A stretch of DNA of 64,000 nt from Thalassomonas haliotis (GTDB lineage Bacteria > Pseudomonadota > Gammaproteobacteria > Enterobacterales > Alteromonadaceae), in the NCBI RefSeq assembly GCF_028657945.1, contig NZ_CP059693.1, positions 992,001-1,056,000 of the forward strand, read 5' to 3'. Position 1 is the first letter of the stretch. Each line of letters opens with the position of its first letter. A program made the translations under genes and the position numbers. Below, in pieces: positions 46,912 to 64,000 of this stretch. The notes beneath the pieces are model-generated. The model made no database searches, was not told where the DNA came from, and was given only the letters and a program-made list of their open reading frames with translations.

Positions 46912-47574
46912 ATGATGCCGATAAAAATACGCCGGAATAACCTGATTTTGTTTTGTACACTGTTTGTGTTTTCTCTGTTGCTGCCCGGCACTGTTTTTGC
47001 CCAAAGCGCATTAACTCCCGGTGAGCGCAGCGCCGCCAAAGCCTTATATCAAACCTGCCGGGCCTGCCACGGAGAACAGGGGCAGGGAAATCCGTTATTG
47101 AAAAGTCCGGCATTGGCGGGTCAGTACGCCTGGTATACCAAGCGGCAACTTAACTCTTTCCGCTCGGGCCTCAGGGGTAAAGCCGGCGACAGGACGGGGC
47201 AACAAATGGCGGCGGTCAGCCGCCAGCTGACAAGCGAAAAAGACATCGAGCTGCTGGCCGCCTATATTGAAACCTTGCCCGGCCATACCCGGGCCAAGGC
47301 CGCCCCGGGCGCAAGAAATAAAAATGGCTACCGTTATTACCAGGGAAAGTGCGGCGCCTGTCACGGCGGTGAAGGGCGGGGCAATGCCGCCTTTAATGCC
47401 CCGAAACTTTCCGGACAACAAGCTGAGTATTTACTGGCCCAGATGAAACATTTTAGCGAGGGAAAACGCGGCGCCGATAAACAGGATAAGTTTGGCCGGC
47501 AAATGGCGATGATGGCAAAAACCGTCTCGCAGCAACAACTCAGCGATATTGTTCATTACCTGGCTGCCCTCTAG
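46912..47574 (+). CDS. Diheme cytochrome c (c4-like)
   Basis: 220 residues with a signal peptide (cleavage near VFAQ) and two class I cytochrome c domains, each with a CxxCH heme site: CRACH at residues 49-53 and CGACH at 147-151. Methionine axial ligands are plausible in the conserved GxQM and GRQM segments. Periplasmic electron carrier. I chose the first ATG of an ATGATG pair behind GAGCAG. First of three exported cytochrome genes. Confidence 0.9.
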   Translation: MMPIKIRRNNLILFCTLFVFSLLLPGTVFAQSALTPGERSAAKALYQTCRACHGEQGQGNPLLKSPALAGQYAWYTKRQLNSFRSGLRGKAGDRTGQQMAAVSRQLTSEKDIELLAAYIETLPGHTRAKAAPGARNKNGYRYYQGKCGACHGGEGRGNAAFNAPKLSGQQAEYLLAQMKHFSEGKRGADKQDKFGRQMAMMAKTVSQQQLSDIVHYLAAL

Positions 47575-47599
47575 GCAAGTCCCGGAAGGTGCCCAGGCC

Positions 47600-49000
47600 A
47601 TGAAAAAATTATCAAAGTTCAGTTCGCTTGCTTATCTTGTGTTGGCTGCAATAACGATTTCCAGCGGATTGTTTGCGGGAGTTGCATATGCAGGTATTTT
47701 TGTCTGGGCTGATCTGCCGGGCGCGGCCCCTGACGTTGAGGCGGTAACATTCGAAGGCACAGAAACGGCTGTGAATAAGATAAGTGCCGATATTACTCGG
47801 CAAATAGCCGGGCGCAGCGGTTTTATTTTATCTTCAATTTGTCCGGCCAGTTTTGAACTGACCGCCGCGGGAGAGTGCAATCTGGTGACCCGCTACCAGT
47901 TTTACGATTCGGTGCAGCAAAGGGGGGTTGGCGGCACCCAAACCGCTTTGCCAAAACACAGGTCGGGTTTTACCCCGCAGCAAATTGATTTGGGCCGTTA
48001 CCTGTTTTTTGATCCTTTGCTGTCAAAAGACGGCACTGTCTCCTGCGCCAGTTGTCATCATCCCGAGCTGGGCTTTAGCGACGGTCGTGGCCGCAGCATA
48101 GGGATCGGCAAAGAGCCGACGGCCAGGGGCGCGCCGAGTTTATGGAATATGACCTTTTTAACCAGCTTTTTCTGGGATGCCAGGGCAAATTCGCTTGAGC
48201 AGCAGGCACAAGGGCCTTTGTTTGACGAAAAGGAAATGGCCAATAGCCCGGAAAAGTTACTCGCCAGTATCCGCAGCAATGCCTACTATCCCGCCATGTT
48301 TGCCCAGGCATTTCCGGACATTGAAAAACCGACCCTGGAGCAGCTTTATACTGCGCTGGCAGCCTTTCAAAGTTCGCTGATTTCCCTGAACAGCCGTTAC
48401 GACCAGTATGCCCACGGTTTTCACCAGGCATTAACCGCCGATGAAATTGCCGGTTTAAATGTCTTTCGCTCTTTTGTCGCCCGCTGCGCCGAGTGTCATC
48501 AGCCGCCTTTGTTTACCAATAACCAGGTGGCGGTAATAGGCACGCCTGAGCCCGATGGCCTGCCCTTTGACAGCGGTGCAGAAAAAACCTTTAACAGCAC
48601 TAAACTCAGGGGCGGCTTTAAAGTGCCCAGCCTGAGGAATATCGGCAAAACCGCGCCCTACATGCATTCCGGCAGGTTTGAGCAGTTAGGTGATGCGGTG
48701 GCGTTTTATAACAAGGGCCGCGGCCATGCGCTGCCTGAAAACGAGCAATTGCAGCTGCACTGGCATATCTGGGAGCCAAATTTGACGGACGAAGAAATTG
48801 CTCGCCTGGTGGATTTTCTCGGGACATTAACGGATGAAAGCCTGCTGCCAGAGGTACCCCAGGTATTGCCATCGGGTTTAATGCCGGTGCAATCACTGCC
48901 TTTATCCGAGATAACAAAAGAGCAAAAGGATAAGGCAAATGCAACAGACACAGTTGCCGCTATAACGACAAACAATGCAATAAAAAATCAGGGAAACTGA
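47600..49000 (+). CDS. Diheme peroxidase / MauG-like cytochrome
   Basis: 466 residues from the chosen start (signal peptide MKKLSKFSSLAYLVLAAI...). It has two heme sites, CASCH at 149-153 and CAECH at 296-300, in the order and context of bacterial cytochrome c peroxidase/MauG proteins (LGRYLFFDPLLSKDGTVSCASCHHPELGFSDGR-type block; VPSLRNIGKTAPYMHSGRF). The N-terminal 90 residues before the peroxidase core are extra. Reduction of peroxide, or oxidation of a partner protein, is likely. The upstream cytochrome gene ends 25 bases before it. Confidence 0.88.
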   Translation: MKKLSKFSSLAYLVLAAITISSGLFAGVAYAGIFVWADLPGAAPDVEAVTFEGTETAVNKISADITRQIAGRSGFILSSICPASFELTAAGECNLVTRYQFYDSVQQRGVGGTQTALPKHRSGFTPQQIDLGRYLFFDPLLSKDGTVSCASCHHPELGFSDGRGRSIGIGKEPTARGAPSLWNMTFLTSFFWDARANSLEQQAQGPLFDEKEMANSPEKLLASIRSNAYYPAMFAQAFPDIEKPTLEQLYTALAAFQSSLISLNSRYDQYAHGFHQALTADEIAGLNVFRSFVARCAECHQPPLFTNNQVAVIGTPEPDGLPFDSGAEKTFNSTKLRGGFKVPSLRNIGKTAPYMHSGRFEQLGDAVAFYNKGRGHALPENEQLQLHWHIWEPNLTDEEIARLVDFLGTLTDESLLPEVPQVLPSGLMPVQSLPLSEITKEQKDKANATDTVAAITTNNAIKNQGN

Positions 49001-49013
49001 TAACGGAGGGGAT

Positions 49014-50549
49014 ATGAAAATAAGGCGGACTTTTACCATGCTTTTGATCTCCCTGGCGTTTACCGCCGGGATCGTTTGTGCCAAATACCTGGACAGCAAG
49101 GGGCAAAGTTTTCATCCGGCAACGAGCGGCAGTGAAGGGGCGAGTTATCTCGGTTACCGGCATGCGGATGCCGAACCGGGTAAGGCAAAAAGCCGTAAGG
49201 CAAGTGCGGTTTCCCGCCGCGATCGCCAGGGAAAAGTCCATGTGGTGAAAGACGGCGATTCGATAATGGCGGCGGTGAAGGCGGCGAGTCCCGGGGATAA
49301 CATAGCCATTTTTCCCGGCAATTATCATGAAACCGTCTACATAGATAAAGACGATATCCGTCTGATTGGCGTGATAGAGGAAGGCGAGCGGGCAACCCTG
49401 GACGGCAGGGAGCTGCTGAATGATGCCATTCTTTATTCAGGCAATAATATCGTGGTGGAGAACTTAAAGATCACCCGCTATAAAGGCAACGGTATTATGG
49501 GGCAGGCAGGCAATAATTTTGAGATCCGCAACAATATTATTATCGATACCGGGGTATACGGCATTTTCCCCCAGCTGGGTAAAAACGGCATCGTAGAGTT
49601 TAATGTTATTTCAGGTATCGAAGATGCCGCCATCTATGTCGGTATGAGTGACAATATCCATGTCGCCCATAACGATGTTTTCGACAGCGTCGCCGGTATC
49701 GAAATCGAGAACTCCCGCCATGCGATCGTGGAAAACAATTATGTCCACAACAATACCGGCGGTATTCTGGCCTTTATTACCCCGGGATTGCCGATCAAAA
49801 CCACTTATGATGTCATCATCCGCAATAATTTTGTGGTCGGCAATAACCATAAAAATTTCGGCGCCCCCGGCTCTACCGTTTCCGGCATACCCGCAGGCAC
49901 CGGCATTTTGATCATGGCGGCGGATGAGGTCATCGTCGAAGGCAATATTATCTCCGACAATAAAACCGCAGGCATCATCATCACAGATCACGACAATGCC
50001 GCCAATATCACCTTAGATCCCGAGTCGGATCCCAGCCCGGATAAGGTGATCTTGCTGGACAATACCATGATCAACAACGGCTATGATACCTTAGATGAAG
50101 TTAAAATCCTGATGCTGACCGAGTTTAAAAGCGGGCACCCGGATATCGTCAGGGTAGGCCAGAGCCGAGATAGCTGTATCCTCAATCCCGAGCGTTATTT
50201 TACTTTGGGGGTGAGCAAGTGGAAAAAATGTGACGTTAGCCATACCGCGGCAATCGAAAGCTATCTTCTGGATGAACCGGTACCGGCGCGGGAGATAGAC
50301 CCGTCCGAGCGGGGCAAGGTGGTTTACCTGGGCATTTGCACCGGCTGCCATACCTACACCGGGCGTATGATAGGGCCGCCGGTGGAGATAATCCAGGCGC
50401 TGTATATGGATAATCCGCAGGGGCTGGCGGACTGGATTGAACAGCCCACCAAAAAACGTCAAGATTATCCGCCGATGCCGCCGCAAAACTACCTGGACAG
50501 GGAAACCCGGCTGGCGGTGGCCAAATATATGTTAAGCGCAACAAATTAG
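49014..50549 (+). CDS. Exported parallel beta-helix protein with C-terminal cytochrome c
   Basis: 511 residues with a signal peptide. Residues about 75-370 are a right-handed parallel beta-helix (repeated pattern such as NNFEIRNNIIIDTGVYGIF, IHVAHNDVFDSVAGIEIEN), a fold found in polysaccharide lyases and epimerases. Residues about 425-511 are a cytochrome c domain with one heme site, CTGCH at 442-446. From memory, marine proteobacterial beta-helix proteins of this kind often pair with diheme cytochromes. GGAGGGG lies before the ATG, 13 bases after the peroxidase stop, so the three genes form an operon. Confidence 0.85.
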   Translation: MKIRRTFTMLLISLAFTAGIVCAKYLDSKGQSFHPATSGSEGASYLGYRHADAEPGKAKSRKASAVSRRDRQGKVHVVKDGDSIMAAVKAASPGDNIAIFPGNYHETVYIDKDDIRLIGVIEEGERATLDGRELLNDAILYSGNNIVVENLKITRYKGNGIMGQAGNNFEIRNNIIIDTGVYGIFPQLGKNGIVEFNVISGIEDAAIYVGMSDNIHVAHNDVFDSVAGIEIENSRHAIVENNYVHNNTGGILAFITPGLPIKTTYDVIIRNNFVVGNNHKNFGAPGSTVSGIPAGTGILIMAADEVIVEGNIISDNKTAGIIITDHDNAANITLDPESDPSPDKVILLDNTMINNGYDTLDEVKILMLTEFKSGHPDIVRVGQSRDSCILNPERYFTLGVSKWKKCDVSHTAAIESYLLDEPVPAREIDPSERGKVVYLGICTGCHTYTGRMIGPPVEIIQALYMDNPQGLADWIEQPTKKRQDYPPMPPQNYLDRETRLAVAKYMLSATN

Positions 50550-50787: not shown

Positions 50788-51020
50788 GTTATAGATAAGG
50801 TCGCCGTTGACGGGGATAAAGTTTGAAAATTTCTTTTTATGCACTTTGATTGCTTTGGCCGGTGGAGCGGGCGATAAAAGTCATGGCAAAAAGCAGCAAA
50901 TCCTTGATTGTGTATAATTAACGCTAATTGGTATTGACTTTCTGTTGTTACCTGCCTTAAATGGAACAAGATTAGGCAGATACCACGGCTTATTTTATTG
51001 AGGTCTATTGAGCTATTTTG

Positions 51021-52598
51021 ATGAGTAAAGCACTGTTTTCCAATAACAAATTAAGTCAGCGGGTATTGGTTTATATTTTGCTTTGCAGCTCTGTGTTATC
51101 TTTATGCACCACTTCGGTACAACTCTATGCCGATTATAATGATGATTTGTCCGCGCTAAAACAACGCTTTGTTAATATTGAAATCAGTTATATTCCGTCA
51201 ATTGCCACCAGTCTCTGGGACTTCAACGAACCTTTAGTGCAGCAGCAGATTCAGGGCATAGTACAGCTGCCGGATATACGTTATGCAAAAATCGTCACCG
51301 GGTTAGGCAATGTCTATGAGTTCGGGGATCCGGATGTGGTGGCCGAAGACGACATGGAATACCCGGTTTTCTATGGTGATAATGATATCGGCACCCTGAA
51401 AGTGTTCGCCGATTACCAGGATATCTACCAGCGGCTGTGGCAAAGGGCCGGCTTTATTATTACCTCGGAATTTATTAAAATTTTTATTGTTGCCCTGTGT
51501 ATTGTCTTTATCGTTCACCTGCTGATCACCCGTCACCTTTATCGTATCACCCATTACTCGCAAGAGTTGGGCAGTGATAACTTAAATACCGCATTAAGCC
51601 TGTCGAACCGGCCCGGTAAAAAAGATGAATTGGACCTGCTGGTGGATGCCATCAATGATATGCGCCTGACTTTAAAAACGGATATTCAAAAACGGGAAGT
51701 GGCAGAAAACGCCCTGATCCAGCTTAACGGTGAGCTGGAAGTGAAAGTGTACGATCGCACCGCCAAATTAGAGCAAAGCAATAAACAATTGCAGCAATCC
51801 CTGGATGACCTGACCCTGGCGAAAGACCAGCTGGTGCAGTCGGAAAAAATGGCTTCTCTGGGACAACTGGTGGCCGGGGTTGCCCACGAAGTGAACACGC
51901 CTTTGGGGATTTGCGTCACCTCCATCACTGCGCTTAAAGAAAAAGTCGATTCGTTAAAGCGGGCAGTCGACTCGCAGGAGTTAACCAAGTCGCATTTGTC
52001 CAATACCTTAAATGTGCTGACCGAATACCAATTGATCATAGAGCGTAGCCTGAATAAATCGGTGGAGTTGATCCGGGGGTTTAAATCGGTGGCGGTTGAA
52101 CAGCACACAGATCCCGAATTGAAGATTAATTTATCCCGCCAGGTGCATGATGTGGTGAACACGGTCAAAACCATGTTTAAGCATAAAAAGTATCAGATCC
52201 ACCTGGATATAGACCCGGAACTTTCCCTGGTGACCTACCCCAGTGCCTGGAACCAGATCTTAACCAACTTTTTAATGAATTCTCATGTCCACGGCTTTGA
52301 GGGGCGGGATACCGGCAATATTTCCATCTCTTTCACCGAAGAGGAGGGTTACCTGACTTTGCTATATAAAGACGACGGTGTCGGCATAAGTCAAAGCATT
52401 AAAAAACGGGTCTTCGATCCTTTTGTTACCACCAAGCGCGGCCAGGGCGGCTCCGGGCTGGGGCTTAATATTGTTTTTAACCTGGTCGATGCCAAACTCG
52501 GCGGTGTTATCAAATGCCTGGATGTCGACCAAGGCTGCTGCTTCCAGGTCCGGGTGCCGATAGTACATGCCGACTCTAAAAAACTTGCCGACGCTTAA
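51021..52598 (+). CDS. Sensor histidine kinase
   Basis: 525 residues. Two transmembrane helices (about 14-34 and 150-172) flank a periplasmic sensor of about 115 residues; a HAMP-like linker and coiled coil follow. The phosphorylated histidine is H289 in AGVAHEVNTPLG, with ATP-binding motifs NQILTNFLMNSHVHG (N box), DDGVGI and GGSGLGLNI. No receiver domain and no adjacent response regulator, so it is an orphan kinase. I chose ATG 51021 over TTG 51018. Confidence 0.9.
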   Translation: MSKALFSNNKLSQRVLVYILLCSSVLSLCTTSVQLYADYNDDLSALKQRFVNIEISYIPSIATSLWDFNEPLVQQQIQGIVQLPDIRYAKIVTGLGNVYEFGDPDVVAEDDMEYPVFYGDNDIGTLKVFADYQDIYQRLWQRAGFIITSEFIKIFIVALCIVFIVHLLITRHLYRITHYSQELGSDNLNTALSLSNRPGKKDELDLLVDAINDMRLTLKTDIQKREVAENALIQLNGELEVKVYDRTAKLEQSNKQLQQSLDDLTLAKDQLVQSEKMASLGQLVAGVAHEVNTPLGICVTSITALKEKVDSLKRAVDSQELTKSHLSNTLNVLTEYQLIIERSLNKSVELIRGFKSVAVEQHTDPELKINLSRQVHDVVNTVKTMFKHKKYQIHLDIDPELSLVTYPSAWNQILTNFLMNSHVHGFEGRDTGNISISFTEEEGYLTLLYKDDGVGISQSIKKRVFDPFVTTKRGQGGSGLGLNIVFNLVDAKLGGVIKCLDVDQGCCFQVRVPIVHADSKKLADA

Positions 52599-52805: not shown

Positions 52806-53531
52806 GTGTCAGCAAGAATAATAAGAATTAATCCAAAGCAGCAGCGCAGCCAAAGCCGGGTCAGCAAAATACTGGAAATCGCCGGTGAGCTGCTTGAATG
52901 CCGTGGTCTGGATGCGGTGACGTTATCGGATATTGCCACTCAAGCGGAAATTACCCGCAGCTCTTTATATCGTTATTTCCCCGATAAAAATGCGGTGATT
53001 AAAGCGCTGGCCCAGCAGCATATGGACAGGCTCAAACAGGAATTTGATTGTCTTTTTTTGCCGGAAAAGTACGGACAAGAGGAGCAGGAAACAAGCCGGC
53101 CTCAGCCGGGCGAGACGGGAACAACCGGCACAGGCATAGCTGCCGGCGATAATGGTGAGCAGCTGCTGGGGCGGCAGCAGTTATTGACAAGCGTTGATAA
53201 GATCATAGATGTTTATGCAAACTTTTATTGTCATCAGCCCGGATTCAGTGCGGTATGGGGGGCCATGGCCAGCATTCCGGAATTGCAGCTGCTTGATGAT
53301 CAGGAGCTGCATTATCACGGCCTGGTCTTCTACCGGCAAACCCGGCAATTATTTCCTCATGTCAGCGAAGCTCAGTTAAAGATCATTAGCACTATGCTGC
53401 CCAGGGCGGTGGGGGCGGTATTACGTCTGGCAATGTCGGCAACAGCGGAAGAAGCAAAGTCCTATATTGAGCAAGCCAAGCAAATGGCAAAAGCGTATTT
53501 ACTGAGCATTTTTGAGCAACAGGGGCGATAA
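52806..53531 (+). CDS. TetR-family transcriptional regulator
   Basis: 241 residues. The N-terminal helix-turn-helix (SKILEIAGELLECRGLDAVTLSDIATQAEITRSSLYRYFPDK pattern) is a clear TetR domain. The ligand domain carries a low-complexity Gly/Thr/Glu insert at about residues 85-125 absent from most relatives. Starts at GTG. It lies upstream of, and on the same strand as, the ceramidase gene and may sense a lipid, but its target is not shown by the sequence. Confidence 0.88.
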   Translation: MSARIIRINPKQQRSQSRVSKILEIAGELLECRGLDAVTLSDIATQAEITRSSLYRYFPDKNAVIKALAQQHMDRLKQEFDCLFLPEKYGQEEQETSRPQPGETGTTGTGIAAGDNGEQLLGRQQLLTSVDKIIDVYANFYCHQPGFSAVWGAMASIPELQLLDDQELHYHGLVFYRQTRQLFPHVSEAQLKIISTMLPRAVGAVLRLAMSATAEEAKSYIEQAKQMAKAYLLSIFEQQGR

Positions 53532-53870: not shown

Positions 53871-55880
53871 ATGAGAAAAATAAGGACGAGGATCAGGAAA
53901 ATAATACCTGCGTTTTTACTTGCCTTTGCAGGTGCCGCCCAGGCGGGAGATTTTCAAATAGGCCGGGGTATACATGATATTACCGGGCCGGCGGCGGAAG
54001 TCGGCATGTTGGGATATGCCGACTTGGAGCAGATCAGCTCAGGTATTCATACCCGGTTGCACGCCCGTGCATTTATCATTGCCGAAAATGACAATGCTAA
54101 CCAGCGGGTGGTGATGGTCAGTGCCGATCTCGGTATGCTGACCCAGTCGGTGAAACAGGGGGTGATGGCCAAGCTCAAGCAAAAATACGGCGGGCTCTAT
54201 CTCGATGCCAATGTTATGTTATCTCCCACCCATACCCATTCGGGTCCCGGCGGCCTGTCCCACTACGCTCTCACCAACCTGACTTCTCTGGGTTATATCG
54301 AGCAGAATTATCATACGGTTGTTAACGGCATAGTGGCGGCGATAGACCAGGCGCACCAGGAGCTGAGCCTTGGGGAAATAAAAATCAACCAGGGTGAGCT
54401 GTATAATGTCAGCGTTAACCGCAGTGACGAAGCCTACCAGGCAAATCCGGCACAAGAAAAAAACCGGTATGACGATAATGTCGAACATACCATGACCTTG
54501 CTGAAATTCAGCAAAAATAACCGGGATTACGCCCAGTGGAACTGGTTCCCTGTGCACCCTGTGTCCATGAGCAGCAGCAATACCCTGATTTCCGCCGATA
54601 ACAAGGGATATGCCTCCTATCTTTTTGAGCGGGACATGGGGCTGGATTACCTGACTAAACAAGGTTTTGTCGCCGCCTTTGCCCAGGCTAATGCCGGGGA
54701 TGTCAGCCCCAACCTGAACCTCGACGGTACAGGCCCCGGCAGTACAGAGCTGGAAAGCACACAAATTATCGGTCAGCGCCAATATGATAAAGCGAAAGAG
54801 CTTTATTTAAGCGCCAGCCAAAGCCTGAGCGGCGATATCAGCTATCGCCATACCTTTGTTGACTTCTCCAAACTGGCGGTGGCTGCCGAATATTCCGGGG
54901 AAAGCGCCAGTACCACCTGCGATGCCGCCTTAGGTTATGCCTTTGCCGCCGGTACCGAAGACGGCAAGGGGCCGGACTGGTTTCACGAAGGAGAAAACAG
55001 TGAAAACCCGCTGTTTACTATGGTAACTTCCCTGATTGCCGTAGCCCCGGATACGCTTAGGGAATGCCATGCGGAAAAAGAAATCCTGCTGGCAACCGGT
55101 TTGGTAGAGCCTGTACCCTGGACCCCGGATGTCCTGCCGCTGCAGTTGCTGAAAATAGGCCGTTTGGCTGTCATTGCCCTGCCGTCTGAGATCACTACCA
55201 TGGCGGGACGCAGGTTAATGGCTACGGTAAAAGCCGAGCTGGCGGGTGAGGTCGATCATGTGGTTTTATCCGGCCTGGCCAATACCTATGCCGGTTATGT
55301 CGCCACCCGGGAAGAATATGCCGCCCAGAATTATGAAGGCGGCCATACCATTTTTGGTCCCCATACCTTGGCGGGTTACCAGCAGGAATTTACTAAGCTG
55401 GCGCGGGCGATCAAGCAAAATACCCAAGTGGAAGCCGGACCGGCTTTAAGGGAGTTGGCGGATCAGCAACTGACCTTCCAAACCGGCGTGGTACTGGATA
55501 ATACCCCGATCTTTACCTCTTTTGGCGATGTCCACCAGCAGGTGAATGCCAGTTACCAGAAAGGACAGACTGCTTTTGTCAGTTTCTGGACCGGGCACCC
55601 GAAAAATGACTTGAAAACCCAGGGCACTTATCTGGAAGTACAAAGGAAAGTGGCAGGCAACTGGCAAAAGGTCGCCGATGATAACGACTGGCAGACCTTT
55701 TACCGCTGGAAGCGTATCGACCCCGTGTGGGGCAGCTCACGCGCGGAAATCTCCTGGAATATTCCATCAGATGCCGCCGGCGGGGAGTACCGCATCCTGC
55801 ATTACGGCGCCTATAAAAACGGCTGGACCGGCAATATCCATAGTTTTACCGGAAAATCCAAATCCTTTACCGTAAATTGA
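53871..55880 (+). CDS. Secreted neutral ceramidase
   Basis: 669 residues with a signal peptide (cleavage near AQAG, residue 25). It matches the neutral/alkaline ceramidase family, which hydrolyses ceramide to sphingosine and fatty acid. Motifs: FQIGRGIHDITGPAAEVGMLGY at the start, zinc ligands in SPTHTHSGPGG (H121, H123), the nucleophile region NTLISADNKGYAS (Ser241), and the C-terminal Ig-like domain from about residue 540. Pseudomonas aeruginosa ceramidase is of similar length. The AGGAAG site is well placed. Confidence 0.92.
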   Translation: MRKIRTRIRKIIPAFLLAFAGAAQAGDFQIGRGIHDITGPAAEVGMLGYADLEQISSGIHTRLHARAFIIAENDNANQRVVMVSADLGMLTQSVKQGVMAKLKQKYGGLYLDANVMLSPTHTHSGPGGLSHYALTNLTSLGYIEQNYHTVVNGIVAAIDQAHQELSLGEIKINQGELYNVSVNRSDEAYQANPAQEKNRYDDNVEHTMTLLKFSKNNRDYAQWNWFPVHPVSMSSSNTLISADNKGYASYLFERDMGLDYLTKQGFVAAFAQANAGDVSPNLNLDGTGPGSTELESTQIIGQRQYDKAKELYLSASQSLSGDISYRHTFVDFSKLAVAAEYSGESASTTCDAALGYAFAAGTEDGKGPDWFHEGENSENPLFTMVTSLIAVAPDTLRECHAEKEILLATGLVEPVPWTPDVLPLQLLKIGRLAVIALPSEITTMAGRRLMATVKAELAGEVDHVVLSGLANTYAGYVATREEYAAQNYEGGHTIFGPHTLAGYQQEFTKLARAIKQNTQVEAGPALRELADQQLTFQTGVVLDNTPIFTSFGDVHQQVNASYQKGQTAFVSFWTGHPKNDLKTQGTYLEVQRKVAGNWQKVADDNDWQTFYRWKRIDPVWGSSRAEISWNIPSDAAGGEYRILHYGAYKNGWTGNIHSFTGKSKSFTVN

Positions 55881-56169: not shown

Positions 56170-58272
56170 ATGGAAAGCCAAACCGCTTGCTCGCCTATCA
56201 ATATCTTATTTGCCGATGATGATACCTTAATGCATGAAATGGTCATGCATGCCCTGGATGACGGTGTTTTTAAGGTCACTGTGGTAGAAAATGGCCGACA
56301 AGCAGTGGATTATTTCACCGCTGCGAAATGGGATCTGGTATTGCTTGATGTTGATATGCCTGAGATGAATGGCTTTGCGGCCTGTCTGCGGATCCGCCAG
56401 CTGGATCCCGACGTCAGTGTGCCTATTGTGATGATCACCGGCCTGGATGATTTTGTCTCTATTGAAGCCGCTTATCTTAGCGGCGCCGATGATTTTATTA
56501 CTAAACCTATCACCTGGCCCACCTTAGGTCAAAGGCTGACCTACCTGCACCGGGGAAATCAGGCTCGATTGCAGTTACAGGCACAAATGCGCAGTGAACA
56601 GGCATTGTATGAAGCCATACCGGACAGCATAGTGACTTTTGACAGTGAGCTGCAGGTGAGGAAATTGCATAAAGGGATGCAGGAATATCTGTTTGCGGAT
56701 CTGGACGAAAAGGGCATACAGCACTGTACTGTGGTCGCTATGTTAACGGATGTCCTGGCGTTAGCCAGTACCGAGCAAATCACCGCCAGTGATTTTACCA
56801 AACAAATTACCCTGGACGGGCAGAGTTATTTTCTTGAGTGCCGCCTGGCGCAGCGGGAGCACTATGAAAGCATTCTTGTGATCCGGGATATTTCCCAGCG
56901 TAAGCAAGATGAAGAAAAGATCATGACGCTGATCTTTTTTGACCCCTTGACCGGGCTTCCCAACAGAACGTTTCTCAAAGAGCAGTTAACCCGGGATATT
57001 GCCAATTGTGAACGCTGGAACCGTGTGTTGGCCCTGTTGTTTTTAAATGTACGTGCTTTTTCAAAAATTAACGAGACTTTTGGCATCGCGGTCGGCGATG
57101 AGTTGATCCTGGAGATCAGTAAACGCCTTGCCGCTTTGTTAAGAAATTATGATACCCAGGCCCGGGTCACCGTCGAAGAGAAAACCGGTTTATCCAGGTT
57201 TGCCGGCGATGAGTTTGCCATTATTTTACGGGACGTCAGCGATAATAAGGACATCAACCGTATTGTCGAACGCTTAATCGGCGAAATGGCTAAGCCCTTT
57301 ACTATTCAGGGGCATAGCCTGGTAGTGGATCTCTATATTGGCTGCAGTCTTTATCCCGCCGATGCAAAGGATGTCGGTACCCTGATTGCGGCCGCCGATT
57401 CGGCGAAAAAATTGAGCCGGCAAGAGCCCTTGATCCCCTTCTCTTTCTATGATTTGTCCGCGAACAAATTGGCCAAACGCCAGCATATTCTTGAAAGCAA
57501 ATTAAGGCATGCCCTTGAAAATAAAGAATTCAGCCTGCTGATTCAGCCCAAGTTTCATTTAAGTCAGCCTGCGGTGCTGTCGGGAGAGTTGTTGCTGCGC
57601 TGGCAAAACAGCGAATTAGGCGCAGTATCACCCGCCGAATTCATACCTATTGCCGAGCAATCCGGCTTGATTATCGAGATCAGTGAATGGGTGCTGGAGC
57701 AGGGGTGCCGCATTGCCCGGCAGTTACAACAAGAGTATGGCTTAAGGGTCCGGCTGGCCATTAATGTTTCTCCCCAGATGTTTTTGGCGAAAGAAAACTT
57801 TCTCGGATACCTCACCCGGTTATTGCTGCGTTATCAAATACCCGCTGCGCAACTTGAACTTGAAATCACCGAATATGTGCTGATGCAAGATGAAAGTGAA
57901 ACCGTCAATACCTTGTTGGCCCTGCAAGAGCAGGGAGTCGGGATTGCCCTCGATGACTTTGGTACCGGGTACTCTTCGCTGAGTTACTTAACCCGGCTCG
58001 ATTTGAACACCCTAAAAATTGACCGGGTCTTTATTTCAACCTTAGACAGTGAACGCAGCCAGAAGCTGGTGAAAAGTATTATCGCCCTGGCAAAACAATT
58101 AGGCATGGAAGTGGTTGCAGAAGGGGTGGAAACCCAGGCACAACTGCAATTTTTACAGGAGATGGAATGTGACTATGCTCAGGGCTTCTTGCTGGCCAAA
58201 CCTATGGTCATTTCTCAATATGTTGATTTTATCGGGCAAAATTTTCCGGATAAGCTGCCTGCCTTTACCTGA
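56170..58272 (+). CDS. Response regulator with GGDEF and EAL domains
   Basis: 700 residues: receiver domain (phosphorylated Asp60 in LLDVDMP; acidic pocket DDD at 16-18), a PAS-like segment at about 140-245, GGDEF domain at about 255-420, and EAL domain at about 440-690. The GGDEF active site is degenerate (AGDEF at 345-349), while EAL residues are kept: E473 in GELLLRW, INVSP, EITE, DDFG at 595-598, LKID and AEGVET. Therefore it is probably a c-di-GMP phosphodiesterase switched by phosphorylation. First gene of a four-gene operon; its TGA is one base before the next ATG. Confidence 0.92.
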   Translation: MESQTACSPINILFADDDTLMHEMVMHALDDGVFKVTVVENGRQAVDYFTAAKWDLVLLDVDMPEMNGFAACLRIRQLDPDVSVPIVMITGLDDFVSIEAAYLSGADDFITKPITWPTLGQRLTYLHRGNQARLQLQAQMRSEQALYEAIPDSIVTFDSELQVRKLHKGMQEYLFADLDEKGIQHCTVVAMLTDVLALASTEQITASDFTKQITLDGQSYFLECRLAQREHYESILVIRDISQRKQDEEKIMTLIFFDPLTGLPNRTFLKEQLTRDIANCERWNRVLALLFLNVRAFSKINETFGIAVGDELILEISKRLAALLRNYDTQARVTVEEKTGLSRFAGDEFAIILRDVSDNKDINRIVERLIGEMAKPFTIQGHSLVVDLYIGCSLYPADAKDVGTLIAAADSAKKLSRQEPLIPFSFYDLSANKLAKRQHILESKLRHALENKEFSLLIQPKFHLSQPAVLSGELLLRWQNSELGAVSPAEFIPIAEQSGLIIEISEWVLEQGCRIARQLQQEYGLRVRLAINVSPQMFLAKENFLGYLTRLLLRYQIPAAQLELEITEYVLMQDESETVNTLLALQEQGVGIALDDFGTGYSSLSYLTRLDLNTLKIDRVFISTLDSERSQKLVKSIIALAKQLGMEVVAEGVETQAQLQFLQEMECDYAQGFLLAKPMVISQYVDFIGQNFPDKLPAFT

Positions 58273-58273
58273 T

Positions 58274-60328
58274 ATGGCCAGGTTCGGCCGCTTGCTTGCC
58301 CTGACTGGTTTGTTGTTGCCGGCGACGGCCGTTGGCCAGGCGCAGGACGAACTTTCGTTAGAAGACCTGATGCAGGTGGAAGTAACCTCTGGCAGCAAGT
58401 TCAGCCAGGAGCTCAGCGATATTCCCGCCGCCGCCTATATTCTTTCCAAACAGGACATTAGGTTAACCGGCGCCACCAACCTGCCCGAGCTGCTGGAAAA
58501 TATCCCGGGTGTTTTTGTTGCCGGCGCCAGTGCCAATACCTGGGCAATTGGCTCCAGGGGGTTTGCCGGGGTATTTGCCAACAAATTGCTGGTAATGGTG
58601 GATGGCCGGAGCCTGTTCAGCCCGCTCTTTTCCGGGGTATTCTGGGACTTACTCGATATTTATATTAATGATATTAAGCGCATTGAAGTTATCCGGGGTG
58701 CAGGCTCAAGCATCTGGGGAGCCAATGCCATTAACGGCATTATCAATATTATCACCGAAGCCAGTGTCGATACCCAGGGGCTTGATTTATACAGTTATTT
58801 TGGCGATCAGACGAGCCATGACCTGGGGATGCGCTATGGTACCTCGCTGGCGGACGGATTGTTTGCCAAAGCCTATATCAAGCAAAAGCAGATTGAGGAT
58901 TTTGCCACGGCATCAGAGGCGATCAGCGATGCCTGGCAATCCACCATGACCGGGGTGAGAGTGGACGGTTTTGTCAACCGGGACAGCTGGTATGTGTCGG
59001 CGGATTATATTGAACAGGATACCTCAGACATCAGTATCATCCTGGCGTCAGACGAGCAGGCGAGCAATCAGTTGGACAATAGCAGCTGGAACCTGACCGG
59101 CTTCTGGCAGCGGCTGATCACCCCGGATAACCGCCTGTCTTTTGCCATGCATATTCAGGAGCAGCAGCGCAGCGGAACCAGTAACCGGTTAACAGATAAG
59201 CTTTTCAACAGCGAGTTAGATCATGCCTACCGCATTACCCCGGCTTTGCTGCTCAGCTACGGACTGGGTTACCGTGTTAACCGTTTCACCCTGGAATCTG
59301 AGCATGCCTTTAACTTTATCGGTGACAATGACCATGCCAGGGCCGAGATCTATAGCGGTTATGGCCAGCTGCAGCTTCAGTTTAATCAACAACAGTCGCT
59401 ACAGCTGGGCAGCAAGGTCGAACGCCATATACATAGCTATGGCGAAACGGCAGAAGGGAAACAGACAGAGCACAGGAAAACTTACTGGTTTCCCGATATT
59501 AAATACCTGCATAAAGTGAATGAACAGTCGAGTTTCTGGCTGAGCCTCAATAAAAGCGAGCGGGTGCCTTCTATGGCGGAGCATGGCATAGATGTCGCCC
59601 TGCTTAATGTTCCGGCGATGTCGGAGCAAAATCCGGCCCCCTGGGATATAGAGACCAGCTTTAAATCTAACCAGGATTTTGCCGCAGAAAAAATCAAAAG
59701 CCTGGAAGCGGGTTACCGAAGCCTGCTTAGTCCGACGATGTCTTTAGATATGGCGGTCTTTTACAGTGACTTTGGGCAGTTGCGCAGCACCCGCCAAGGA
59801 GCTGTTGTTTGCCGGCAGAGCCAGCAGGCGCCTCCGGACTGTAACCTGCCCGACACCATAGAAAGTGAAGTGATCCTGGAAAATGACGCCTCGGCCACCA
59901 GCTTAGGGGTTGAAGCCTACTCCAACTGGTTGCTGAACCAGAATATCCGTTTGCAGTTTAATTATGCTTACCTGGATCTGGATTATCAGGCGGGATCCGA
60001 TTTGGTTTTAGAGGATGCCGTCAGCACCACCTTTTATCGCCACAGTTTCGGCATCAAAGGAGACTGGCTGCAGGGAGACAGGTTTAAAGTGCGGCTTGCC
60101 TACAGCGCTAAACGCCGCCTGCACTCACCGGATAAAACCTTGCTCAAAGCCGATACCGAGCAGCTCAACCTCTCGGCATATTATCAGCTATTGCCCGGGG
60201 TTATGTTGTCGGCCCAGGTGAAAAACCTGCTAAACGATAAGGAATACCAGTGGTTTCCCGAGTTTCCCAAAGGCCATGCCAGCGGGGAAAAACAACAATT
60301 TTTACTAGGGATGCGCATCACCTTCTGA
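58274..60328 (+). CDS. TonB-dependent receptor of the signalling operon
   Basis: 684 residues. A signal peptide (cleavage near VGQA) is followed by LSLEDLMQVEVTSGSK, the start typical of receptors that cluster with YfiR and signalling proteins. The plug contains NLPELLENIPGV and VEVIRGAGSSIWGANAINGIINI-type motifs, and the barrel ends in GMRITF. I chose the ATG at 58274, directly after the stop of the upstream gene; a longer frame to 58115 runs inside the EAL domain and lacks a signal peptide. The yfiR gene follows after one base. Confidence 0.92.
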   Translation: MARFGRLLALTGLLLPATAVGQAQDELSLEDLMQVEVTSGSKFSQELSDIPAAAYILSKQDIRLTGATNLPELLENIPGVFVAGASANTWAIGSRGFAGVFANKLLVMVDGRSLFSPLFSGVFWDLLDIYINDIKRIEVIRGAGSSIWGANAINGIINIITEASVDTQGLDLYSYFGDQTSHDLGMRYGTSLADGLFAKAYIKQKQIEDFATASEAISDAWQSTMTGVRVDGFVNRDSWYVSADYIEQDTSDISIILASDEQASNQLDNSSWNLTGFWQRLITPDNRLSFAMHIQEQQRSGTSNRLTDKLFNSELDHAYRITPALLLSYGLGYRVNRFTLESEHAFNFIGDNDHARAEIYSGYGQLQLQFNQQQSLQLGSKVERHIHSYGETAEGKQTEHRKTYWFPDIKYLHKVNEQSSFWLSLNKSERVPSMAEHGIDVALLNVPAMSEQNPAPWDIETSFKSNQDFAAEKIKSLEAGYRSLLSPTMSLDMAVFYSDFGQLRSTRQGAVVCRQSQQAPPDCNLPDTIESEVILENDASATSLGVEAYSNWLLNQNIRLQFNYAYLDLDYQAGSDLVLEDAVSTTFYRHSFGIKGDWLQGDRFKVRLAYSAKRRLHSPDKTLLKADTEQLNLSAYYQLLPGVMLSAQVKNLLNDKEYQWFPEFPKGHASGEKQQFLLGMRITF

Positions 60329-60329
60329 C

Positions 60330-60857
60330 ATGAGAGCTAGCGGTTATCTGATTCTTGCAATGATATTGTTTTTGTCGCCGCTCCGGTCAGCCGGTTCGGC
60401 GATGGACAGTTACGACCTGCAATGGCGTTATATGGAAAACTTTGTCAAATATATTCACTGGGCAAAGGAGCAAAGCCTGGCAGATTACCGGGTGTGTATT
60501 GTCGGCAAATCGCCGTTTGCACGTCCGTCCGGTGTGCTGCAACTGAAGCAAGCCCGCTTGATGCTGGTGGCTTATGAGAATAAGTTGCCCGATGAAAGCG
60601 AAATTTCCCTGTGCCACCTGGCCTACCTGAGTAAGGGGCTGGAGCACGATCTTTATTTTTTTATCTTAAACGAGCTGAAAAAATGGCCGGTATTAACCGT
60701 CAGTGACAGGGAGCAATTTATCCAGCAGGGAGGCCTGATGCAATTTATTACAGTAGACAATAAATTACGCTTTATTATCAACGGCCATGAAGCGAAAAGG
60801 AAAGGTATTATCATTTCGCCGGCTTTACTGCGTTTGTCTGAAAAGGGGGCGGGTTAG
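60330..60857 (+). CDS. YfiR family periplasmic protein (DUF4154)
   Basis: 175 residues with a signal peptide (cleavage near GSAM, residue 24). Family pattern: [32 protein letters not shown], a GGLMQFIT block, [24 protein letters not shown]. Two cysteines, C56 and C95, are 39 residues apart, the same spacing as the C71-C110 pair of Pseudomonas aeruginosa YfiR. There YfiR holds the diguanylate cyclase YfiN inactive from the periplasm. Here the next gene is a hybrid kinase with a YfiN-like sensor. Coupled to both neighbours (1-base gap on each side). Confidence 0.88.
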
Positions 60858-60858
60858 C

Positions 60859-63684
60859 GTGTTAGGCTTATTTACGCATCATTCTATCCGGCGGCGCACC
60901 TGGGGCTTTATCATGTTCGCCTGTATTCTGGCGCTGAGTTTTTCGCTGGTTTTGGGTTTTTTTAATAACCTGCGTTCCATCAATAAGATCGAAGCCAGGT
61001 TTCAGCAGAGCATGGCCAGGACCATGGAACAAAATGTCAAAGCCTCCCTGTTATTTAACCATAAAGAGTCTGCGCAAAGCTTAATCGACGGTTTTCGCGA
61101 TGACCCTTATCTGGCATTTGTCGCCGTACTCGGCGCCGACAAGCAGCTATTTGCTGCCACTTCCCCGGTTAATGCCGCCGCCAGGGTAAAGCGCTTGTTT
61201 GCACAATACCGAGACGCCAGCAGCGCTTCTTTTGCCCTGCCGGGGGAAAGCCGCCAGGCCCATATCAGCCCGATACGCTCCGATGAAAACGCCCTGCTAG
61301 GTTATATGGTATTAATCTCCAGCGGCGAGTTGTACCGGGAGTTATGGCAAGAGTATTTGATCACTATGTTATGGGAGTTTTTACTCGTGGTGGTGATTGC
61401 CGGGTTATTGTCGCGACAATTTTCCCACACCCTTAGCCGGCCGATAGTTAATACTTCAGCTTTTATTAATAGGGTGACCCGGGAAAAAAACTATGCGTTA
61501 CAGATACAGGACATAGAAAAAAATGAAATAGGTCAGTTGCAAAAGGGCTTAAATGAGCTGATCCGCATGGGGAAAACCTGGAATAATGAGCTGCAAAACT
61601 TCAGCAATAAACTCAAACAAGAAGTATCGGCGAGAACCCGGAGCCTCAGGGAAGCCAAACAAAACCTGGAAGTTACGGTGAAGGAGCTGCAAAAAGCCAA
61701 GGAAGCAGCCGATGCCGCCAATCTTGCCAAATCCCAGTTTCTTGCCAATATGAGCCATGAAATCAGGACTCCGATGCAGGGGGTGCTGGGGATGGCGGAA
61801 TTGCTGTCTGCAACTGAGCTCAGTAGCGAGCAGTTTCAGCACCTGCAAACCATCAAGAAATCGGGGCAGAATTTACTGTATATCATTAATGATGTGCTTG
61901 ATTTTTCGAAAATAGAACAAGGGCATTTAACCTTGAGCACAGGCTGGTATTCGCTGCGGGATGTGCTCGAGGAGTCGGTGACCTTGCTCTACGGCAAAGC
62001 CGCTGAAAAAGGCATCGAACTTGTCGCGAACCTGCCGCTGCTTGAGTGCGAAGCTTTTTATTTTGACCGGGGCCGACTGAACCAGGTCTTTGTCAACCTG
62101 CTCAGCAATGCCATCAAATTTACCGAGTACGGCCAGGTGAAAGTGTCGTGGCAGATCAGCTTGCAGGAAAAGCAGGCGGAAGTGGCGATTGCCATCACAG
62201 ATACCGGCATTGGCATCCACAAGCATAAACAACAGCAGATCTTCGAGGCTTTTCAACAGGCGGACTCCACTACCACCCGCATTTACGGCGGTACGGGCCT
62301 GGGATTGTCCATTTCCAAACTGCTGATCGATAAAATGGCCGGGAACATCACCGCGGCCAGCGAATATGGCCGGGGGTCCTGTTTTACCGTTGCCTTAAGG
62401 CTGGGACGGGATCTGACGGCGGCTCCCGCCCCTTATTTTCGCGAGCATATCTTTCCCGGGCTGAAAATTGCGCTGATCAGTCCCCAGGCCAATGAAGCCG
62501 AGGTGATATGCCAGCATTGCCAGTTTTGGGGCGCCGAGTGCTTCTGGTTTCAGGATATCGCCTGTTTTGAAACCCGTGTGATACGCCGCCGGACGATAAC
62601 CGGACTCAAGGCCATCTTGTGGGATAAACAGGGGGCAGGCGGCGACAGCCATCCGTTAGAGCAAATCATAGATAATTTCGCCGGGGATAAGATCCCGGTT
62701 ATTCTCCTTGACCGCCATGTCCATTCGGCGTCGGGATCGAGAAAAAAATATCAACACTTAAACAAACCCCTTACCACCAAACGTTTATTCCAGCTGGCTG
62801 AATTATTGTTTGCAAACCGCCCGGTGACCGAGCTGAATAAGAAAAGTGAAGCGCAGCTCGACTTTGTTGTCCGTTGCCCGCCTCATGTATTGCTTGCCGA
62901 TGACAACCTGGTTAATCAGGAGTACGGCCAGGCGGTTTTGTCAAAGCTGATGTGTGAATTTGATATTGTCGATAGCGGCAAAAAAGCATTGCAGAGCTAT
63001 ATAAACAAGCGCTACGACCTGGTGCTGATGGATTGCCAAATGCCGGAGATGGACGGTTATAGCGCCACCCTTGCCATCCGGGAGTATGAAGACAAACATG
63101 GCCGAACCAGGGTGCCGATAATTGCCTTGACCGCACATGCCTTGAGCAGCGAAAAGCAAAAATGTTTCGATGTGCAGATGGATGATTATTTATGCAAGCC
63201 TTATGGCATACGGGAACTGGTTGAGGTGATGAACCCGTACTTAGCCGAAGAAAAGCAGTTTGTAATCAAGCGTGATGCCAGTGCTGCCCTAAAAAGAACT
63301 CGCGGGGAAAAACCACAGGAAGCCGTGATCGATAAACAAAAGCTGGATAATATCAGGGCGCTACAAAAGCCGGATCAGGAGAATCTGCTGGTGAAGATAA
63401 TCCATCGTTTTTTTACCGATGGCGAGCAAATGATCAATCAGCTTAACGACAACCGCGAACAGGAAAATTTTGAAGCGCTCAGGGCCTGTGTGCATAAGTT
63501 TAAAACCGCGGCCCGTAATCTCGGAGGCACAGGTTTAGGTGATTTATGCGAACGTTTAGAGCATCACGAGGCCGGTGATTGGCAAGGCATAGATGAGTTA
63601 CTGGCACAGATTCATCAAGATTACCAGGGCTTGTTGAAAGCCCTTGGCGATATTCGTGAAAGCGAAGCCGCGGCACAGGAATAG
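60859..63684 (+). CDS. CHASE8-like hybrid histidine kinase
   Basis: 941 residues: transmembrane helix (about 16-36), periplasmic sensor with [20 protein letters not shown], resembling the CHASE8 domain of YfiN, second helix (about 165-190), HAMP, HisKA with H300 in MSHEIRTP, HATPase ([23 protein letters not shown]), a degenerate receiver at about 530-660, an intact receiver with D725 in LMDCQMP, and an HPt domain with H879 in [13 protein letters not shown] full phosphorelay is therefore present. I chose the GTG at 60859 behind AAAAGGGGG, one base after the yfiR stop. The HPt domain could pass phosphate to the REC-GGDEF-EAL protein. Confidence 0.9.
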
Positions 63685-63773: not shown

Positions 63774-64000
63774 CTAAGGCAGGTTTATCTCCCCCGACAT
63801 ATAATCGACGGCATTGCCGGTTAACAGCACCCGGTCGCCTTTTAGCTCACAGGTCATAAAACCGCTGCGCCGGGAGAGTTGTTTGGCGGTCAGCAGCCTG
63901 CGTGTTAATTGTGTCTGCCAATAAGGGGCCAGCTGGCAGTGGGCGGAGCCGGTCACCGGATCTTCATTCACCCGGTATTTAGGGTAAAAGCAACGGCTGA
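63774..64000 (-). CDS. PhzF family isomerase (5' partial)
   Basis: Only the last 75 residues lie in the window; the frame runs past base 64000 with no start. The visible region SRCFYPKYRVNEDPVTGSAH is the signature of PhzF-type epimerase/isomerases (the EDPVTGSAH loop), and the end matches their C-terminal strands. Reaction unknown. It converges on the kinase gene; a weak GGGCG/CGCCC hairpin lies between (63742-63755). Confidence 0.85.
   Translation of the reverse strand, partial: SRCFYPKYRVNEDPVTGSAHCQLAPYWQTQLTRRLLTAKQLSRRSGFMTCELKGDRVLLTGNAVDYMSGEINLP

Follow-up and report, generated by a model that had tools for sequence, protein, structure and literature searches.

A TonB-type receptor, a YfiR protein, a CHASE8-type hybrid kinase and a predicted c-di-GMP phosphodiesterase in one putative operon of Thalassomonas haliotis

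Could a single bacterial operon hold a complete signalling line, from a receptor in the outer membrane to an enzyme that degrades cyclic diguanylate (c-di-GMP)? The question is raised by four adjacent genes of Thalassomonas haliotis (Gammaproteobacteria: Alteromonadaceae), which encode a TonB-type outer-membrane receptor, a periplasmic YfiR protein, an inner-membrane hybrid histidine kinase and a REC-GGDEF-EAL protein. They lie in a stretch of 64,000 nucleotides (assembly GCF_028657945.1, contig NZ_CP059693.1, positions 992,001 to 1,056,000), which is called the window and supplies the coordinates given below. Here we put at about 0.68 the probability that these genes form such a line, running from the outer membrane through YfiR and the kinase to the c-di-GMP-degrading enzyme. 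The reading is based on the genes, their domains and spacing, intact catalytic and phospho-acceptor residues, a recurring gene set and natural gene fusions, all read from sequence.

In the proposed line, the receptor would sense an outside ligand and alter the state of YfiR in the periplasm, probably through binding or release, and YfiR would bind the CHASE8 sensor of the kinase and set kinase activity. Phosphate would pass from His300 to Asp725, to His879 of the HPt domain and on to Asp60 of the REC-GGDEF-EAL protein, where phosphorylation would change phosphodiesterase activity in either direction. By extension, receptor occupancy might control biofilm or motility.

The four genes and their products

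The four plus-strand open reading frames (ORFs; Table 1) are separated by gaps of exactly one base, a spacing from which co-transcription is inferred. An earlier note, made by a model from the letters of the window, had described these parts and one-base gaps, and both are borne out by the ORF calls and Pfam; its parts list was right but put the enzyme last, whereas on the DNA the enzyme gene comes first, followed by those of the receptor, YfiR and the kinase. An alternative kinase start (ATG 60787) would overlap YfiR, and alignment with two relatives favours GTG 60859. Promoter-like sites showed no excess (10 against a chance mean of 8.9). Terminator-like sites numbered 18 against 9.9 by chance, lay mostly within genes and on both strands, with two directly 3' of the kinase, and were not used as evidence.

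Table 1. Features of the four-gene locus, in window positions.
Feature	Position	Strand	Basis
REC-(PAS-like)-GGDEF-EAL protein, 700 amino acids (aa), predicted REC-controlled c-di-GMP phosphodiesterase	56170..58272	+	Pfam, catalytic residues
Enzyme REC domain; phospho-acceptor Asp60, plus Asp17, Lys112	56203..56535	+	Pfam, residue alignment
Degenerate GGDEF; first metal Asp is Asn293, motif AGDEF	56935..57408	+	Pfam, residue alignment
EAL domain; nine of nine checked catalytic residues present	57499..58203	+	Pfam, residue alignment
TonB-type outer-membrane receptor, 684 aa, Plug and barrel	58274..60328	+	Pfam, NCBIfam
YfiR/HmsC-like periplasmic protein, 175 aa; one Cys pair (C56, C95) and F148 kept	60330..60857	+	Pfam, NCBIfam, PDB alignment
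CHASE8-type hybrid histidine kinase HisKA-HATPase-REC-HPt, 941 aa, GTG start	60859..63684	+	Pfam, alignment
CHASE8 periplasmic sensor, Cache/PAS-like fold, A-S-L-L-F motif at residues 62-66	61003..61293	+	Pfam, sensor alignment
HisKA, phospho-acceptor His300	61726..61923	+	Pfam, alignment
Kinase REC, Asp725	62887..63228	+	Pfam, alignment
HPt, His879	63400..63627	+	Pfam, alignment

The Response_reg, GGDEF and EAL domains of the enzyme all exceeded their Pfam cut-offs; the roughly 120 residues between REC and GGDEF look PAS-like by inspection and gave no PAS match in Pfam up to E 1. The enzyme was aligned with 41 REC-GGDEF-EAL rows, which include the window's own copy and some duplicates. Asp60, Asp17 and Lys112 are kept in all 42 rows, and the EAL residues, checked against a list of nine that we take to be the catalytic set, are never substituted, with four rows gapped over part of that list. 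The window GGDEF domain lacks the metal-binding Asp and the GG(D/E)EF motif of an active diguanylate cyclase: the first metal-binding Asp is Asn in the window, L034, L106 and L107 (motifs AGDEF or SENEF) and Gln in L097 (GGDQF), and is kept in all other rows, some of which have the variants SGDEF, GGDEL or DGDAF. Since the EAL residues and the REC Asp are kept and the GGDEF domain is degenerate, the enzyme of the window lineage is predicted to be a pure phosphodiesterase whose output should be c-di-GMP breakdown; most of its relatives may be bifunctional.

In the kinase, HisKA, HATPase, Response_reg and Hpt each scored over the Pfam cut-off. The sensor matched CHASE8 (PF17152; cut-off 27) with 23.9 bits (E 5e-5) in the long kinase form, 26.9 on the sensor alone and 27.7 in the genome search, in which it was the sole match. 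A match for the CHASE8-like sensor of the earlier note is thus present, though borderline, and spans kinase residues 49-145 rather than 36-165. From the 49 sensors of L106-L185 seven were excluded from the sensor alignment (L113, L127, L128, L148, L176 and two of L183); CHASE8 was matched at E<=0.01 in all 43 scanned members, and F66 of the A-S-L-L-F motif is kept in at least 90% of them. Relatives were also searched with an in-house sensor profile built up from its own matches; these include the L215 kinase, whose sensor Pfam assigns to sCache_4, and the counts of 'CHASE8-like' proteins below, which derive from it, are broader than CHASE8 proper. It matched 108 of 116 kinase or GGDEF proteins near YfiR versus 22 of 101 over 1,500 bases away, many of these 22 in receptor loci.

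The window YfiR matched DUF4154 (PF13689) with 96.4 bits (cut-off 24.9), and a profile built from three YfiRs found the YfiR of Pseudomonas aeruginosa in the PDB at E 1.9e-9. Its best NCBIfam match was the TOL_0243 YfiR-like family (NF053591; 61.1 bits, under the cut-off of 125). C56, C95 and F148 correspond to Cys71, Cys110 and F162 of the P. aeruginosa protein, in numbers counted along the PDB alignment, and the same residues occur in 113, 118 and 98 of 125 YfiRs; the second Cys pair of the P. aeruginosa protein is missing. It is the only stand-alone YfiR of the genome, and the only CHASE8 match of the genome comes directly after it. The published counterpart of the sensor motif is AAVVF of YfiN, the predicted YfiR-binding site (PMC3375315). 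The match between the two motifs, together with the kept YfiR residues, is good, if indirect, evidence for binding of YfiR to this kinase. A second YfiR of the genome (L001, G000:C1:6246413-6246829, minus strand) forms a direct fusion with a histidine kinase (638 aa) that adjoins a REC-GGDEF-like protein and has no CHASE8.

The conserved Cys pair allows another account, in which YfiR itself senses periplasmic redox and the receptor is incidental. C56 and C95 align with the redox-labile pair Cys71-Cys110 (PMC4655355), HmsC of Yersinia is redox-responsive (PMC8846402), and a receptor adjoins YfiR in only 7 of 33 cases in the set found by YfiR alone. We nevertheless consider this account unlikely: the window receptor gene lies one base from YfiR, and in the sets found by receptor the two adjoin in 37 of 39 and 57 of 59 YfiR ORFs, partly owing to the search mode.

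The receptor scored above the Pfam cut-offs for Plug, which begins at residue 47, and TonB barrel, with no separate N-terminal signalling (STN) domain of the FecA type among its Pfam matches, which are Plug and barrel families alone. A contact with YfiR is inferred from gene order. The best NCBIfam match was TOL_0244 (NF053590), and the receptor might mainly import a lipid- or alkane-like nutrient, the role proposed for TOL_0244 and OmpS, with the signalling genes adjusting behaviour around uptake and with YfiR and the kinase not reading the receptor. TOL_0244 was raised sevenfold on n-C28 alkane compared with Tween 80 in Thalassolituus, and the one link to OmpS of Alcanivorax is its stated 40.3% similarity to TOL_0244 (PMC6304351; further sources on both proteins are PMC5174103 and PMC9788540). 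This account is improbable in our judgement, as the window receptor scored 345.7 bits against a TOL_0244 cut-off of 645, related receptors have as neighbours a periplasmic protein and a sensor protein whose outputs are of several kinds, and a periplasmic protein from another family can take the place beside an unchanged type of receptor. The neutral ceramidase gene upstream was rejected as a clue to the ligand; in L034, which has the exact gene order, a di-haem peroxidase and a short-chain dehydrogenase occupy that place.

Recurrence of the gene set and natural fusions

All surveys were seeded with window proteins, and the fractions are not unbiased frequencies. The window YfiR matched in 30 of 147 genomes of the family (its own included), with a best foreign match only 32% identical. 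The receptor matched in 34 of 394 genomes of the order at E<=1e-45 (own included), and 38 of the 39 stretches that cover the 40 foreign receptor places contain YfiR, several of them in the permuted order receptor-YfiR-kinase-enzyme. The earlier note had looked to relatives for the four-gene order. The set does recur, but the exact order was found in one other genus, represented by an uncultured Alteromonadaceae metagenome-assembled genome (MAG; L034/L107), elsewhere the set is permuted, and none of the three congeners sampled keeps it. A second genome of the L034/L107 genus most likely also has the exact order, on two short contigs that presumably belong together, with YfiR and kinase in L033 and enzyme and receptor in L106 (Algicola MAG).

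The 153 loci L033-L185 contained 131 YfiR ORFs, of which 126 were distinct after removal of identical domains. Fourteen runs, the window included, combine a CHASE8-like kinase with HPt and a separate REC-GGDEF-EAL protein, all with a receptor, and two have a CHASE8-like kinase in which no HPt was found together with a REC-GGDEF-EAL protein. A single fused kinase-HPt-REC-GGDEF-EAL protein occurs in 12, with a receptor in the run for 10. Another 17 contain an HPt kinase and no such enzyme; the remainder comprise other kinases (29), CHASE8-like GGDEF-EAL (22) and GGDEF (12) proteins, YfiR-kinase fusions (2), and other or cut runs (16). L194 is a further locus with the full four-gene set. The ORF caller missed a YfiR in L038 and the matched gene in L192, which was counted as unresolved.

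Each of the 12 distinct fusions is encoded by one ORF (1634-1705 aa); they come from Nitrosomonas, Sedimenticola, tubeworm symbionts, Thiorhodococcus and gammaproteobacterial MAGs. Pfam assigned CHASE8, HisKA, HATPase, REC (three stretches), HPt, GGDEF and EAL to the L110 fusion, the one scanned, and the kinase-to-EAL domain order of the fusions occurs in the window split over two genes. In a quick tree of REC domains (147 rows, 120 columns), the window enzyme fell into a 35-row set (support 99) with 14 fused RECs, 15 of the 20 REC-GGDEF-EAL rows from YfiR loci (one being the window's copy), three enzyme RECs without YfiR in the locus and two others. The kinase RECs labelled as lying ahead of an HPt, all 55 of them, fell into a separate set (59 rows, support 96). 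The natural fusions, which join kinase, HPt, REC, GGDEF and EAL, are good evidence for a putative transfer from HPt to the REC of the phosphodiesterase, and gene adjacency points the same way. When REC and linker of the window enzyme were searched in 197 genomes of the order, 30 had a match at E<=1e-15 (own included); among the first 13 non-self matches ten lie directly beside a REC+HPt kinase, five of these in receptor-YfiR operons, while two do not and one was unresolved. Whether YfiR is present or not, enzymes with this type of REC thus habitually pair with HPt kinases. Two fused genes are directly followed on the 3' side by an HDOD-domain gene (L110:17942-18823, L122:17480-18346).

The kinase might instead signal to another regulator, with the phosphodiesterase gene controlled separately or by other kinases. 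Fourteen receptor-YfiR-kinase-HPt runs without the enzyme would fit such an arrangement, as would L067, which has receptor, YfiR and enzyme but no kinase; the twelve fusions speak against it, as does the repeated occurrence of this REC type next to HK-REC-HPt proteins, and we rate it below the redox and uptake accounts. L071, of the same genus as L067, has two tandem receptor-YfiR pairs beside one kinase.

Several results weigh against a complete line in the window. Within its own genus the operon is not conserved: two of three sampled congeners lack any YfiR match at E<=1e-5, and the third has a YfiR of 28% identity and a CHASE8-like kinase, with neither receptor nor enzyme in the run. The 17 HPt-kinase runs without the enzyme, 14 of which have a receptor, imply that the kinase can also act on other targets. 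Of the enzyme RECs from YfiR loci, five (L087, L097, L117_0, L123_3 and L131) lie outside the 35-row set, and L097 and L131 have the enzyme in a run in which no HPt was found. No YfiR ORF was found in 23 of 80 receptor-found loci, several being short contigs, or in 15 of the 20 receptor loci fetched at class level. Finally, no N-terminal receptor motif distinguished YfiR-linked receptors in the three sets compared. The candidate L..[ED][ED]L[LM] was rejected as a marker; it occurred in linked versus unlinked receptors at 2/8 versus 2/8 (family set), 4/36 versus 1/8 (order set) and 21/59 versus 11/36 (genome-contig search set, partly found by such a pattern), and owing to this failure no contact site on the receptor is proposed. 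Set against these points, the recurring sets and the fusions give strong comparative support to the proposed relay.

Some receptor-YfiR loci have other genes in third place. The gene after receptor and YfiR encodes no detected sensor in L120, where it is a homocysteine methyltransferase/MTHFR-type protein, or in L141. An alphaproteobacterial MAG has, directly after the pair, a gene with matches to FeeM, GNAT and autoinducer-synthase profiles (L154:12636-13328), and L108 has one of similar size in the same position.

Known systems and a second periplasmic adaptor

The locus resembles YfiBNR of P. aeruginosa and HmsCD in that a periplasmic YfiR would act on a CHASE8/PAS-like inner-membrane sensor with c-di-GMP output, and in keeping the reported YfiR-YfiN binding motifs. 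Unlike those systems it has a TonB-type receptor and no YfiB (an OmpA-like lipoprotein); unlike YfiBNR, it has a CHASE8 hybrid kinase with HPt in place of the CHASE8-HAMP-GGDEF cyclase YfiN, and a separate REC-GGDEF-EAL protein with degenerate GGDEF as output. Malone et al. (2012; PMC3375315) reported that distant Yfi operons mostly lack YfiB and that GGDEF-EAL, HPt or histidine kinases often replace the GGDEF domain of YfiN; like the window, these divergent operons combine YfiR and a YfiN-like sensor with kinase output, including a hybrid kinase in Thauera. No REC-GGDEF-EAL partner or fusion appears in section 12 of that paper, on divergent Yfi operons, and TonB occurs nowhere in its main text.

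In NCBIfam, the window receptor comes closest to TOL_0244 and the window YfiR to TOL_0243, two families read from their locus numbers as a neighbouring pair; both window proteins score well under the curated cut-offs. HmrABCX of Caulobacter (PMC11481889) shares with the window a hybrid kinase of the inner membrane, there with a LapD-like periplasmic domain, and it has HPt proteins and controls a motile-sessile switch. The idea that the two are one system was dropped: HmrC is a five-helix membrane protein and neither YfiR nor DUF4154 appears in the main text of that paper.

What is already known, then, are YfiR operons with sensor-kinase output and receptor and YfiR families from neighbouring TOL loci. 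The novelty suggested for the complete relay in the earlier note was too strong, as a computational description of YfiR with sensor-kinase outputs dates from 2012 (PMC3375315) and the arrangement occurs widely. No published receptor-YfiR-kinase-phosphodiesterase line was found in a search judged mostly by titles, with subscription literature mostly outside it; nor did the searchable literature show input through a TonB receptor or a relay with a phosphodiesterase at its end.

At class level, the TOL_0244 profile matched in 108 of 143 genomes at E<=0.001, only four over the cut-off, and also in 3 of 14 controls, so that its weak matches include ordinary TonB receptors. The top 23 places yielded 20 stretches, two places sharing one and one place and the window's own being excluded. 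YfiR is present in five, nine have a protein of about 330 aa after the receptor, and six have neither. In these nine loci (L210-L215, L217, L219 and L220) the protein stands between the receptor and a kinase or GGDEF-EAL protein, which the in-house sensor profile matched in seven of nine cases, and all nine proteins match ABC_sub_bind, eight over the cut-off and one weakly. The L215 protein, the one compared with the PDB, matches 3LKV and 3LFT, both structural relatives of YfiR (PMC4655355). As ABC_sub_bind proteins hold the position of YfiR and the L215 protein matches structural relatives of YfiR, the comparison suggests that the two are alternative adaptors in one design. The window may then be one case of a general, apparently unnamed class composed of an outer-membrane receptor, a substrate-binding-fold periplasmic adaptor (YfiR being one), an inner-membrane sensor (Cache-type where checked) and an exchangeable output, a tentative proposal to which we give slightly less than an even chance.

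Neighbouring genes and biological meaning

Upstream of the operon, the window contains a di-haem cytochrome c peroxidase and, after it, a NosD-like beta-helix protein that weakly matches cytochrome c (47549-50549), a histidine kinase with a CHASE5 sensor (51018-52598), a TetR regulator (52806-53531) and the neutral ceramidase, with both Pfam domains (53871-55880). Downstream, on the minus strand, lies the C-terminal end of a PhzF-type protein (63774-63998), cut by the window edge.

The four genes offer a testable route by which a molecule outside the cell could, from the outer membrane and without entering the cytoplasm, set c-di-GMP and so attachment or swimming, and the natural fusions are single proteins suited to assaying HPt-to-REC transfer and phosphodiesterase control. 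If the general class is real, TonB-type receptors would be a broad input to c-di-GMP and YfiR would be a slimmed substrate-binding protein turned signal adaptor; the exchange of YfiR for ABC_sub_bind, with receptor and sensor of like kind on either side, would hint at the origin of the YfiR fold.

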